DNA of 64,000 nt from a bacterium. GTDB lineage: Bacteria > Hinthialibacterota > Hinthialibacteria > Hinthialibacterales > Hinthialibacteraceae. Position numbers and translations under genes: made by a program. The stretch is taken from contig WGLV01000022.1 in assembly GCA_016125385.1 (NCBI GenBank), forward strand, positions 186,001-250,000, given 5' to 3'. Positions 16,705 to 20,999 of this stretch are shown piece by piece. The first letter of the stretch is position 1. The number at the start of each line of letters is the position of its first letter. The notes beneath the pieces were generated by a model. The model searched no databases. It was not told where the DNA came from and saw only the letters and a program-made list of their open reading frames with translations.

Positions 16705-16868
16705 GGATGAAGTTGGTTATACCAGTATAGCGGAACCTTGTCAGCGGCAAGACGATCCTTCGATTTCCACCCGCGTGAAGGTATTCTCGTCTCGTGGTGA
16801 AAGGTGGCGTGAATTGTCTCGAAAATCAGGTCGTCATCGGCGTACTCCACGCTTGGATTGAAAGTCAC

Positions 16869-18302
16869 ATGGCGAAACGCAATATTCCCAAAGGCCCCTT
16901 CTGGAAATTCGCGCTGGTCGACCTGGCGGTCATCGCCGCCGCGCTGGCGCTGGCGTTCCTGATCCGGTTTCAGGAATTCCGCCCGGAAAACCTGAACATC
17001 TACGTCCAGCTCGCGCCGCTGATCGTCTTCATCCGGCTGGGTTCGCTTTTTGCCTTCCGCTTGTATGACTTCAGCCAGCCCCTGACCGTATTTGACATCG
17101 TGTACACCACTTTCTGGGCGATGGCGGTATCCCACGGGCTTGAGAGCCTCCTGCTGCTGTATACCGGAACCTACATCGCTTCCCACTCCGCCATCGGCAT
17201 CCCCCCTTTGATTGAAGACGCCACCATAGAGCGATCGTTCCAGGTTTCGCGCTACATCATGGCGCTAAATTTCATCGCCAGTTGGGCGCTTACCGCGGTG
17301 TGGCGCACGCTTTACCTCTACCGCCGCCGCCGCTGGGGGTATGACCGCACCCGTATGTTGATCGTCGGAGCGGGGCCGATGGGCGAAAGCGTACTGCGCG
17401 ACGTCGAGCAATACTCGCGCCTGGGACATGAGGTGGTGGGACTGGTTGATGACGACCTCGAACAGACGCTCAGCCAGACGAAAGTGCTGGGTAAAATCAG
17501 CGACCTCCCGGTTCTGGTCGAGCGAGAGGAAATTGATGAAATCATCGTGACCAGCCGCCGCGCCGACCGTCAGACCATGCTTGAAATCCTCACCGCCTGC
17601 CGCGCCACCGGCTGCGAGGTTCATCTTCTGCCCGAATTGTATGAAGTCACCATCGGCCAGGTGGAGATCGGTCAGGTGGCGGGCATCCCGCTGATCCGGG
17701 TAGGCATGGAGCCGTGGAGCGACTGGCGGCGTTTCAGTAAGCGCCTGTTTGACGCGGCCTCCGCAGCCGCGTCTCTGATCGTGCTGTCTCCCTTGTTCGT
17801 GCTGGTGGCGCTGGCCATCCGGCTCGACAGCCCCGGCCCGGCGTTTTACCGCCAGACGCGCATCGGCAAAGACGGCGCGCCCTTCCGCATCGTGAAGTTC
17901 CGCACCATGAAAAAAAACGCGGAGCGCGAAACCGGCCCGGTCATGTCGGACGAGCGCGACGAGCGCGTGACTCGGGTCGGGCGCTGGTTGCGCTTCGCTC
18001 ATCTCGATGAGTTGCCGCAATTATGGAACGTACTGCGTGGCGAGATGAGTCTGGTGGGGCCGCGTCCCGAACGTCCCCATTTCGTTGACCAGTACGCCCG
18101 CGCCCTTCCGTTGTACCGCCTGCGCGAGCGCGTGCGTCCGGGAATGACCGGCCTCGCGCAGATTCATGGATTCTACAATTCCCCGGTTGAACACAAATTG
18201 CGCTACGACATCGCATACATCAACAATATGACGTTTCTTCTCGACATAAAAATCCTGTTCAACACGCTGAAGGTCTCATTAACCGGTCGCGGCGCCCGCT
18301 GA
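16869..18302 (+). CDS. Polyprenyl-phosphate sugar-1-phosphate transferase (exopolysaccharide initiation)
   Basis: The 477-residue protein has four or five N-terminal transmembrane helices (about residues 12-145). A Rossmann-like CoA-binding-type domain follows from IVGAGPMGESVLRD (about 163). The C-terminal bacterial sugar transferase domain has the membrane-re-entrant KRLFDAASAAASLIVLSPLF, the catalytic region KFRTM and the signature DELPQLWNVLRGEMSLVGPR. Enzymes of this WbaP/PglC superfamily load a sugar-1-phosphate from a UDP-sugar onto undecaprenyl phosphate, starting O-antigen, capsule or exopolysaccharide repeats. The ATG at 16869 is chosen because the first helix follows it; an upstream ATG at 16794 would add 25 unrelated residues. 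The gene ends where the repeat region begins, and no other polysaccharide genes follow. Confidence 0.92.
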   Translation: MAKRNIPKGPFWKFALVDLAVIAAALALAFLIRFQEFRPENLNIYVQLAPLIVFIRLGSLFAFRLYDFSQPLTVFDIVYTTFWAMAVSHGLESLLLLYTGTYIASHSAIGIPPLIEDATIERSFQVSRYIMALNFIASWALTAVWRTLYLYRRRRWGYDRTRMLIVGAGPMGESVLRDVEQYSRLGHEVVGLVDDDLEQTLSQTKVLGKISDLPVLVEREEIDEIIVTSRRADRQTMLEILTACRATGCEVHLLPELYEVTIGQVEIGQVAGIPLIRVGMEPWSDWRRFSKRLFDAASAAASLIVLSPLFVLVALAIRLDSPGPAFYRQTRIGKDGAPFRIVKFRTMKKNAERETGPVMSDERDERVTRVGRWLRFAHLDELPQLWNVLRGEMSLVGPRPERPHFVDQYARALPLYRLRERVRPGMTGLAQIHGFYNSPVEHKLRYDIAYINNMTFLLDIKILFNTLKVSLTGRGAR

Positions 18303-18373
18303 AATATAGAATGTTATTATTCATATCCATCCTTGTTTAAACATAAAACACGAAGGAAATCATGTTCTGTTTT

Positions 18374-18437
18374 CCTCAGCGCCAACGAGCGCGCACGACT
18401 CGTACAACCCAAATTCTTGGCGGCGGACACTGTCCGC
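18374..18437. repeat. Repeat A, diverged copy (two-hairpin element)
   Basis: Hairpin 1 is GCGC-CAACGA-GCGC (18379-18392), preceded by CCTCA as in the other copies. Hairpin 2 is GCGGAC-ACT-GTCCGC (18423-18437). The stem of hairpin 2 differs completely from the other copies yet still pairs, and the distance between hairpins (50 bases from the first stem base to the second loop) is kept. Confidence 0.75.
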
Positions 18438-18552
18438 ATCCTGTCTATCCTGATTCAGACGAATAGAACTCAATCCATCTCATTCAGACAACCTCAGCGC
18501 CAACGAGCGCGCTTGACTCACACAACTCAAAACTCGCCCCAGGCGCTGCCTG
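18438..18552. repeat. Repeat A, full copy 1
   Basis: This 115-base unit is nearly identical to 18621-18736, with a few substitutions and one indel. A shared leader (ATCCTGTCTATCC, then TTCAGACGAATAGAACTC) precedes hairpin 1, GCGC-CAACGA-GCGC (18497-18510), and hairpin 2, CAGGC-GCT-GCCTG (18540-18552). Confidence 0.9.
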
Positions 18553-18620
18553 CATGTTTTTGTGATTCAAATCCGGTTCCAATTTCCCAACGATCGCTTT
18601 TTATCCTGTTTATCCTTCAT

Positions 18621-18736
18621 ATCCTGTCTATCCAGATTCAGACGAATAGAACTCAATCCATCTCATTCAGACAACCTCAGCGCCAACGAGCGCGTTGGAT
18701 TCACACAACTCAAATACTCGCCCCAGGCGCTGCCTG
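18621..18736. repeat. Repeat A, full copy 2
   Basis: This is the near-duplicate of 18438-18552. Hairpin 1 is at 18680-18693 and hairpin 2 at 18724-18736, with the same loops CAACGA and GCT. The two copies lie 183 bases apart in direct orientation. Confidence 0.9.
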
Positions 18737-18858
18737 TGCTCCGGCTGGGGCGCAAACTTGAAAATTAATCCTTCCAAATTGCGGTTCTCTCTCCATCCTC
18801 GAAGCGCGCTTCATTCAAAACCCGTTGCACACATTCTGGGCCGTTCGTTTCATACGGC

Positions 18859-18966
18859 GGCGCCGGTTCGTGGAAGATTCCGCTCGCGCAAAAATGGAAC
18901 GTCCGGTGAAAGGACGAATAAACACGGGGATCACAACGCATGAAAAAAGCGTTGGGCCCAACGTAA
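18859..18966. repeat. Repeat B, copy 1
   Basis: This 108-base unit starts at GGCGCCGGTTCGTGG and ends at the palindrome CGTTGGGCCCAACG (18950-18963) plus TAA. It matches 19118-19226 almost base for base. A six-A run (18943-18948) beside the palindrome makes the minus strand look like a terminator. Confidence 0.9.
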
Positions 18967-19051
18967 CTTTCACGCATATCAAAAAATTTCGAGACAGGAC
19001 GGAAGAAAAGAAAGAACGGCAATATTCATTTCACATGACTCAATTTGGCGG

Positions 19052-19113
19052 CCTCAGGCCCAACGAGGCCGCTTGGTTCGCACAGCCCCAATACGTGCCC
19101 CGGCCGCTGGCCG
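19052..19113. repeat. Repeat A, compensated variant
   Basis: Hairpin 1 is GGCC-CAACGA-GGCC (19057-19070) and hairpin 2 is CGGCC-GCT-GGCCG (19101-19113). Against the other copies both stems have changed sequence but still pair, while the loops CAACGA and GCT and the 49-base offset are unchanged. It directly abuts repeat B copy 2. Confidence 0.85.
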
Positions 19114-19117
19114 CGGT

Positions 19118-19226
19118 GGCGCCGGTTCGTGGAAGATTCCGCTCGCGCAAAAATGGAACGTCCGGTGAAAGGATGAATAAACATGGGGATCGCAACGCAT
19201 GAAAAAACGCGTTGGGCCCAACGTAA
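19118..19226. repeat. Repeat B, copy 2
   Basis: This is the second copy of the 18859-18966 unit, in direct orientation, 109 bases long. It begins four bases after repeat A ends, so A and B may be parts of one composite element. Confidence 0.9.
19202..19224 (-). terminator. Terminator-like palindrome downstream of the HerA-like operon
   Basis: Read on the minus strand, the palindrome CGTTGGGCCCAACG is followed by CG and TTTTTT. It lies about 85 bases past the HerA-like stop codon, in the right orientation to end that transcript. It is part of repeat B. Confidence 0.55.
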
Positions 19227-19310: not shown

Positions 19311-20999
19311 TCACCCCTCAGGAAAATACCCCAGCGCCTTGTCCAGTTCGTCGTCCCGTTGTTCGTCTGAGCGGTCTCCCATCGCCTGATAAAAATCGGG
19401 GCCGTAATGCCGTGTCTTGACTACCACCGGCATGGGCGTGGCGTGCCCCAGAATCAGCGCCTGTTGTCGCGTGTCGAGCGAAGCCAGCACGTTGCGTAAC
19501 GCGGCCGCGCCTGAGACGCCAGTGAAGACGGCGGCGATGTCCTTCTCATCGTTGAGCAGCGCGGTGACGCGCGTGCCCAGCTGCGAGAGAATCTCGTCAT
19601 CGATGCCCGAGGGCCGCTGGTCGACCACCAGCAGCGAGACGAAATACTTGCGCAGTTCGCGCGCGATCACGCCGAAGATGGTCTGCCTTGCCGCTGCGGG
19701 GTTGAGAAACTTGTGCGCTTCTTCGATGGAGATCATCAGCGGGCGCGGACGGTCCTCGAGTTTTGTGGTGGCCATGTATTTTTCCGCCTGTTTCACCCAC
19801 GCGGCGTGAATCCGCCGAGTGATCAGGTTAGCCACCAGCAGGTACGCCAGCATGTTAGAGACGCGGCCGAATTCGAGATCGATGTTTTTGCCCGCCTTCA
19901 ATTCTTCGATCAGGCGTAGCACGTTGATCCGCGATGACGACGCTCCTTCGGCGAGTTTTTCCGGCTGATCGACGATAAAGGGCAGGGAACGGATCGCGCC
20001 CAGTTTTCGGTACAGCGCGGCGAGGCTTTCCTTGTTGGCGCCGATCTCCTCCGCCCAGTCCTTCATGCTCGCCGGCTCCCGGTCGAGCAGTTCGAGCATC
20101 CAGCGCTTTTTATAATGATTGCGCAGAATGTACGCGGTCTCGATGGCGGTGGAATGCAGATTCAGTTCATCCTGCAGTGGAGCGATGTCTTCCACTTCGA
20201 TCTCCGTCAACGGGATCTTCAATTCGAAGTCGAATGGAACATTGCGCGCCGATGCCGATTCGGGATCAAGCGTGCAGATGGCGACCTTGTGCCCGAACAG
20301 GTTCTTCAGCCCTTTGACGAATGAATCTTTCTGTGAACCCGACTCGGCGCGCGTCTGCCAGCCGTATTCGCTGTGCATGTCGAAAATCAGGTTGACCGCT
20401 TTGTTACTACGGATCAGTCCCGCCAGCACCAGCCGGGTGAGAAAGGTTTTGCCGGTGCCTGTCTTGCCGAAGACGCCGTTCGATCGTTCGATGAACCGGT
20501 CCAGATCGAGACAAACCTCCACGTCTTCCATGTCGAGCGGCGAACCCAGGCTGAAATACCGCCGGTCCGATCCATCTTCTCGGCCGAAGATCCGGTCGAC
20601 GTCGACCGCGCCCGCCTTGTACACGGTGGAAAAGTGCGCGGGTACGCTCTTGACCGGGCGCAGATCGTCCTCGCGCTTGAACTCGGCCTTGCGCTCGACC
20701 ATCAGCATGGGCTTGAGCGAGATGGTGGCGTAGGTGTGGTCGCCTTCCAGCACGTTAGAGAGCAGCGTCCGGCGGCCGGGCGGATCGCGCAGAATCGACG
20801 CGCTGGAGGCGTCGAGCCGCACGTCGGTGATCATCGAAAAGAAATCGTGGCGCGCGCCCTCGATCACCACGAACTTGCCGGCGCGCACGTCTTCGATCGA
20901 GACCCCGGCGTCGAGCCGCATCTCGATACCTTCCGACAGCGAGCCGGAGGTGACGGCGCCAAGCCGCTCTTCTTGATTCCGATTTAATCCGTCAGCCAT
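19311..20999 (-). CDS. HerA-like hexameric ATPase (DUF87 family)
   Basis: The 562-residue protein has an N-terminal beta-barrel-like region (about 15-130, HAS-barrel type). The HerA/FtsK-type ATPase core carries the P-loop GKTGTGKT (Lys184) and the Walker B strand PLMISIEEAHKF. A later VVDQRPSGIDDEILSQ segment matches the conserved R-x-P-S/G-x-x element of HerA proteins. HerA translocates DNA, with NurA nuclease in archaeal end resection or with varied partners in bacterial defence. No NurA is present; instead the gene overlaps a small upstream gene by 16 bases, so the two products probably work together. The role (DNA repair or defence) is open. Confidence 0.85.
   Translation of the reverse strand: MADGLNRNQEERLGAVTSGSLSEGIEMRLDAGVSIEDVRAGKFVVIEGARHDFFSMITDVRLDASSASILRDPPGRRTLLSNVLEGDHTYATISLKPMLMVERKAEFKREDDLRPVKSVPAHFSTVYKAGAVDVDRIFGREDGSDRRYFSLGSPLDMEDVEVCLDLDRFIERSNGVFGKTGTGKTFLTRLVLAGLIRSNKAVNLIFDMHSEYGWQTRAESGSQKDSFVKGLKNLFGHKVAICTLDPESASARNVPFDFELKIPLTEIEVEDIAPLQDELNLHSTAIETAYILRNHYKKRWMLELLDREPASMKDWAEEIGANKESLAALYRKLGAIRSLPFIVDQPEKLAEGASSSRINVLRLIEELKAGKNIDLEFGRVSNMLAYLLVANLITRRIHAAWVKQAEKYMATTKLEDRPRPLMISIEEAHKFLNPAAARQTIFGVIARELRKYFVSLLVVDQRPSGIDDEILSQLGTRVTALLNDEKDIAAVFTGVSGAAALRNVLASLDTRQQALILGHATPMPVVVKTRHYGPDFYQAMGDRSDEQRDDELDKALGYFPEG

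Follow-up and report, generated by a model that had tools for sequence, protein, structure and literature searches.

The window, a stretch of 64,000 nucleotides, contains four copies of a two-hairpin element in which the loops are kept and the stems change. The question raised by this locus is what kind of element they represent: a mobile repeat, a relative of the bacterial interspersed mosaic elements (BIMEs) or an RNA. The array lies between two genes: a sugar transferase gene on the + strand (ORF at 16794-18302; Pfam Bac_transf), which is convergent and on the gene-distal side, and a HerA-like ATPase gene on the − strand (ORF at 19311-20999; Pfam DUF87 and HAS-barrel), whose 3′ end points towards the array on its gene-proximal side.

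Four element copies and their flanking repeats in the window

All four copies are found on the + strand and match a covariance model (R1) with E values of 3e-15 or better. Copy 1 (18374-18438; 72.5 bits, E 1.3e-17) consists of hairpin 1, GCGC-CAACGA-GCGC, at 18379-18392 and hairpin 2, GCGGAC-ACT-GTCCGC, at 18423-18437. Copy 2 (18492-18554; 63.7 bits) and copy 3 (18675-18738; 68.3 bits) have the same hairpin 1 (18497-18510 and 18680-18693, respectively) together with CAGGC-GCT-GCCTG as hairpin 2 (18540-18552 and 18724-18736). Copy 4 (19052-19115; 67.6 bits) combines GGCC-CAACGA-GGCC at 19057-19070 with CGGCC-GCT-GGCCG at 19101-19113. The four copies and the hairpin positions of the original prediction are thereby confirmed. 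The 18-nt block common to the three GCGC copies, CTCAGCGCCAACGAGCGC, is found 3 times with up to 3 mismatches compared to 0.16 expected in shuffled sequence, so the repeats in the window are not due to chance.

The copies are embedded in other repeats. A flank module of the ATCCTGTCTATCCTGATTCAGAC... type is located at 18438-18491 (+ strand), on the gene-distal side of copy 2, and is repeated before copy 3 at 18621-18674. The direct repeat covering this flank (D1) spans 94 nt with 96% identity, and the same flank type is found beside other element copies. A different flank module is made up of short ATCCTGTCNATCCTG...ATTCAGAC motifs in tandem, present at 18438-18460 and 18608-18650 in the window and at many loci. 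Copy 4 is bracketed by a second dispersed repeat (direct repeats D2 and D8, 18855-18966 and 19114-19226), which is about 110 nt long, 96% identical, carries the terminal palindrome CGTTGGGCCCAACG and ends in GCGTTGGGCCCAACG. A further copy of this repeat adjoins the element at another locus (L015), and an 85-aa ORF across it has no match in Pfam. The array in the window does not abut a stop codon: the nearest one, that of the HerA-like gene (19313-19311), is 195 nt away from copy 4, with another repeat in between.

A large family found in a single genome

Using a covariance model derived from 47 copies gathered from the host genome itself, we found at least 149 copies in 84 clusters in that genome (5.53 Mb in 77 contigs, 95.8% complete); this count is a lower bound, as 150 candidates were scored. 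The four copies in the window accordingly do not stand alone, which excludes the first condition that would have refuted the original prediction. Copy density is uneven, with 22 copies in 120 kb on contig C9 alone. Units inside a cluster are arranged head to tail, and all clusters have a single orientation except for one region of contig C22. Local duplications involve blocks of 78-307 nt that include the flanking modules.

A covariance-model search of relatives, proposed with the original prediction, yielded no copies in any of the 13 other genomes of the class (5 of the same family and 8 others) or in 27 further bacteria, making 40 genomes in total. The exact element pattern has no match in GTDB r220 outside the host genome and none in viral contigs. 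By the HerA gene next to the array, the closest named relative (74% identity) is a MAG, SURF_12, which carries the label Candidatus Omnitrophota; the element was not found behind its HerA gene. Among the genomes searched, the element is found only in the host genome.

Hairpin 2 is a compensated palindrome

Hairpin 2 has the form C-x-G-y-C, an RCT loop and G-y′-C-x′-G. Pairs 1, 3 and 5 are nearly fixed; at pairs 2 and 4, GC, CG and AT replace one another with full compensation. Among 133 distinct copies, we counted 150 double-changed cells compared to 49 in shuffles, and none of 500 shuffles reached 150. The covariation score drops from 0.234 to 0.067 or less once the partner is slid, and the 47-row alignment agrees on compensation in hairpin 2. 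The compensatory stems around a conserved loop that were predicted from the window thus hold on 47 and on 133 distinct rows, and hairpin 2 as a compensated palindrome is strongly supported.

Compensation of this kind could be selected in an RNA or in DNA. The one-sided changes, read on the top strand, comprise 26 G.T and 23 A.C, favouring wobble pairing in the RNA of neither strand. Because an RNA selected on one strand should tolerate G.T or A.C but not both, this balance lowers the RNA reading, and an explanation at the level of DNA, or palindrome-correcting mutation, accounts better for the structure signal than an RNA does. RNA folding of single window copies gave no consistent two-hairpin structure (copies 2 and 3 fold with a long-range CAGCGCC/GGCGCUG pairing), and Rfam showed no match in the window region at the gathering score, nor at four further loci at E 0.1. 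With no wobble bias, inconsistent folds and no Rfam match, the suggestion of an RNA in the original prediction was not borne out.

Palindrome correction would require no function at all: template switching during replication may rewrite one arm of a quasi-palindrome from the other. Hairpin 2 falls largely into six discrete, perfectly paired stem types, with few intermediates in which a single side has changed, and the mismatches have no strand asymmetry, both of which speak for such copying. Nonetheless, template switching explains the arms only and leaves aside the conserved RCT and AAC loops, the linker, the dispersal and the placement behind stop codons, and the difference between fixed pairs 1, 3 and 5 and variable pairs 2 and 4 suggests that part of the stem is recognised. 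We consider it an improbable account of the element.

Hairpin 1 and the anatomy of the whole unit

Hairpin 1 is found in two forms. The short form, present in 28 copies including those of the window, displays true compensation, with the stems CGC/GCG (15), GCC/GGC (7), CCC/GGG (4) and GCT/GGC (2). The commoner long form, CGAC/GGAG or CAAC/GGCG, has outer pairs, two non-pairs and inner pairs around the loop; in most of the 89 copies parsed, the mid-stem positions are G.A and A.G, a conserved tandem mismatch. The pairing originally proposed for hairpin 1 is thus right for the 28 short-form copies but does not extend to most copies, which carry the tandem mismatch. The tetranucleotide before hairpin 1 (n = 149) is CCTC in 35 copies, CGTC in 19, CATC in 19 and CTTC in 14.

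With respect to genes, the element runs opposite to the direction in which it had first been read: the leading part is hairpin 2, which points to the 3′ end of the gene. In gene sense, the order is stop codon, palindrome 2 (CxGyC-AGY-Gy'Cx'G), a conserved linker (GCCgAGTmTTTGGGTTGTgCGAAT), the imperfect palindrome 1 (GCGCTCCCGTTGGTCGC), GCTGAGG, GCGnGATnGAG and a tail. The tail following GCGnGATnGAG at the gene-distal end is one of several modules. For example, the GTAG-tagged palindrome GTAGGGGCnGGTTTnAAACCnGCCC is one of these tail modules and has about 20 exact occurrences in the genome (C55:18315-18343, C9:115392-115420 and C14:23325 among them). Another palindrome, CTCCCCCAAACTTTGGGGGAG, is found at about 40 genomic places (e.g. 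C31:49440 and C42:112702), often as a gene-distal module of the element.

Element copies often directly follow native stop codons

With clustering at 1 kb, there are 86 clusters, and in 61 of them the next gene on the hairpin 2 side is oriented toward the element. For the 58 clusters with a clear gene of at least 450 nt, we measured the gap from the stop codon to the core hairpin: it is exactly 0 in 14 clusters and 1-4 nt in 11 more (p ~5e-20 compared to uniform placement over 200 nt), an abutting share that is approximate given that genes were called by a simple ORF rule. In several clusters where the gap is 13-19 nt, an additional hairpin 2 copy starts at or next to the stop codon. Among 456 long-ORF ends examined, 15 have a perfect 5-bp hairpin directly behind the stop, and 13 of these hairpins belong to the element. 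About half of the clusters, including the copies in the window, are located more than 20 nt from any clear stop codon.

The abutted genes are unrelated and encode SecA, RNase Y, MoaA, a dihydrolipoamide-dehydrogenase-like enzyme, a sigma-54 activator, ThiC, a ParB-like protein, a CcsB-like protein and others; the YebC and MsrB genes are at a somewhat larger distance from their element copies. For 13 abutted genes, we compared orthologs from up to three same-family genomes: nearly all have the same terminal residue, mostly without any difference in position, and the C-terminus of SecA matches in 4 relatives. On this basis, the idea that genes are cut short by the element and receive a new stop codon from it was rejected. 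Behind none of the orthologs of the 13 genes is the element found; unrelated sequence is located there instead. Since the C-termini are equal in relatives lacking the element, it came to native stop codons in the host lineage. In these relatives, the gene ends are collinear and the intergenic DNA is too diverged to reveal a filled or empty junction at the base level.

Such placement could reflect a functional 3′-UTR RNA element under selection, with the stop-touching hairpin affecting either the termination of translation or the 3′ ends of mRNAs. The exact adjacency to the stops of unrelated housekeeping genes would fit this possibility, as would a stable GC hairpin with compensation, and precedents exist: many REPs are located 1-20 nt from the ORF end, with translation downregulated when the distance is below 16 nt, and in E. 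coli, REPs within 15 nt of the stop codon stall ribosomes (reviewed in PMC12306157). Nevertheless, we regard an RNA of this kind as unlikely, given the lack of G.U bias on either strand, the lack of conservation in any relative searched, the many copies far from any stop codon, a number of clusters (84) that is small for a genome-wide gene-end signal and the absence of a U-tract for termination. An intrinsic terminator was rejected: on the gene strand, neither hairpin is followed by a U-tract.

Position behind stop codons is also a property of integron-like or other tyrosine-recombinase sites (attC-like) that are read as a folded single strand. The AAC/GTT triplet conserved in the loop of hairpin 1 and the GCCCAAC box of some copies are in line with such a site. 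On the other hand, no R''/R' pair spans the element, there is no long imperfect hairpin, the genes concerned are single dispersed housekeeping genes and not a cassette array, and most copies have GTTGGTC in place of GTTRRRY. We therefore hold this origin to be very improbable. A genuine attC site was rejected on anatomy: RYYYAAC...GTTRRRY boxes bounding a long hairpin were found in none of the copies, all of which were read.

TAG and CTAG are enriched at the junction

Of 25 abutting ends, 14 (56%) use TAG as the stop codon, compared to 57 of 326 background gene ends (17%; p value = 5.6e-6). The tetranucleotide CTAG is strongly avoided in this genome, with 100 occurrences in the 461 kb examined or about 1 per 4.6 kb, and 17 of these 100 are found at the gene-proximal ends of elements compared to 0.8 expected. 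CTAG ends 18 of the 326 background genes, so a considerable fraction of the CTAG sites are stop codons. Only about a fifth of the clusters (~20%) have CTAG at their gene-proximal end, and TGA and TAA junctions are also found, indicating that the target preference is not absolute. This junction pattern suggests a target preference combined with purifying selection; stop codons are the places where an insertion harms least. More tentatively, insertion may be aimed at stop codons as such, entering exactly at CTAG/CTGA-like stops, leaving the protein unchanged and often leaving TAG, so that the targeting itself would make the element harmless; we see this as conceivable rather than probable.

The under-representation of CTAG also shows in GCTAGC, which is found 105 times in the host genome compared to 4949 for the reversed control.

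Comparison with known repeats

REPs are mostly found downstream of coding regions, sometimes overlapping them, and GTAG REPs often serve flanking ORFs as the source of their TAG stop codon (PMC3733652). The element resembles the GTAG REPs and BIMEs mobilised by RAYTs (PMC3733652; PMC2817692) in its more than 100 short palindromes, which are mosaic, clustered and downstream of genes. Based on the usual description of a REP (a short imperfect palindrome with more than 100 extragenic copies, mostly 3′ of genes), the element, with at least 149 mostly intergenic copies, falls within the range. Like GTAG REPs, it often touches stop codons, with TAG there, and its host encodes RAYT-like proteins, namely two RAYT-like Y1 transposases.

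Unlike GTAG REPs and REPtrons, the element has no GTAG (or GTGG) tag and no adjoining RAYT gene. Neither GTAG nor CGTC is conserved at either foot of the hairpins in the 149 copies, and no copy is located within ~1.5 kb of either RAYT-like gene. On these two grounds, the element is not filed as a REP. Near the RAYT-like genes themselves, one GTAGGGGCnGGTTTnAAACCnGCCC copy lies inside the gene of L032, where it seems to be read as VGAGLKPAP, and in L031 (1778-2415) the RAYT-like gene precedes a short array of tandem repeats whose translation would give MTGEG/GHALAGHA-like repeats.

Other known repeats share single features with the element. In contrast to BIMEs, it consists of two unlike palindromes 48-50 nt apart, arranged head to tail, and not of alternating inverted REPs. 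Like CGTC REPs, which include the Rickettsia palindromic elements (PMC3733652), it forms dispersed palindromes without a dedicated transposase; yet CGTC is present in only 19 of 149 copies, the motif being CNTC with any N, so the CGTC foot is lacking, and the element copies differ further in being intergenic and behind stops. As in the stop-proximal REPs of E. coli, the hairpin is placed just behind the stop on the sense strand of the gene, but here the commonest gap is exactly zero.

The element thus behaves in a REP-like manner but is a separate, undescribed kind: the tag and RAYT adjacency set it apart from REPs, and orientation sets it apart from BIMEs.

Miniature elements derived from IS200/IS605 have hairpins near their ends, no terminal inverted repeats, a fixed orientation and a one-sided preference for a short tetranucleotide. 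The element shares end hairpins, the lack of terminal inverted repeats, fixed orientation and a tetranucleotide with them. No autonomous IS200/IS605-like parent with the ends of the element was found.

A probable mobile palindrome that would accumulate behind stop codons

The element is dispersed and tandem, forms palindromes with compensated stems, keeps a fixed orientation and is often found directly behind native stop codons, among which TAG and CTAG are enriched. We lean towards the view that it is a lineage-specific, non-autonomous REP/BIME-like mobile repeat. The original guess of a non-autonomous mobile or BIME-like repeat is in line with these findings.

As such a mobile repeat, the element would spread in single-stranded form, folded into hairpins that are recognised by their shape and possibly moved in trans by an IS200/IS605-like (RAYT-type) Y1 transposase. 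Insertion would take place just 3′ of a CTAG/CTGA-like tetranucleotide. With CTAG rare and a good part of its sites being in-frame stops, surviving insertions would build up directly behind stop codons, and the arrays would arise by local tandem duplication. Once placed, the hairpin may, like REPs, delay ribosomes at termination or protect the 3′ ends of mRNAs.

The family provides a clear case in which many unrelated genes have short palindromes placed exactly after their native stop codons and, judging by the orthologs, have kept their ends unchanged. Two questions become testable through it: whether REP-like repeats are placed at gene ends by the choice of target or by selection, and whether they are guided by CTAG, a rare, stop-enriched tetranucleotide.
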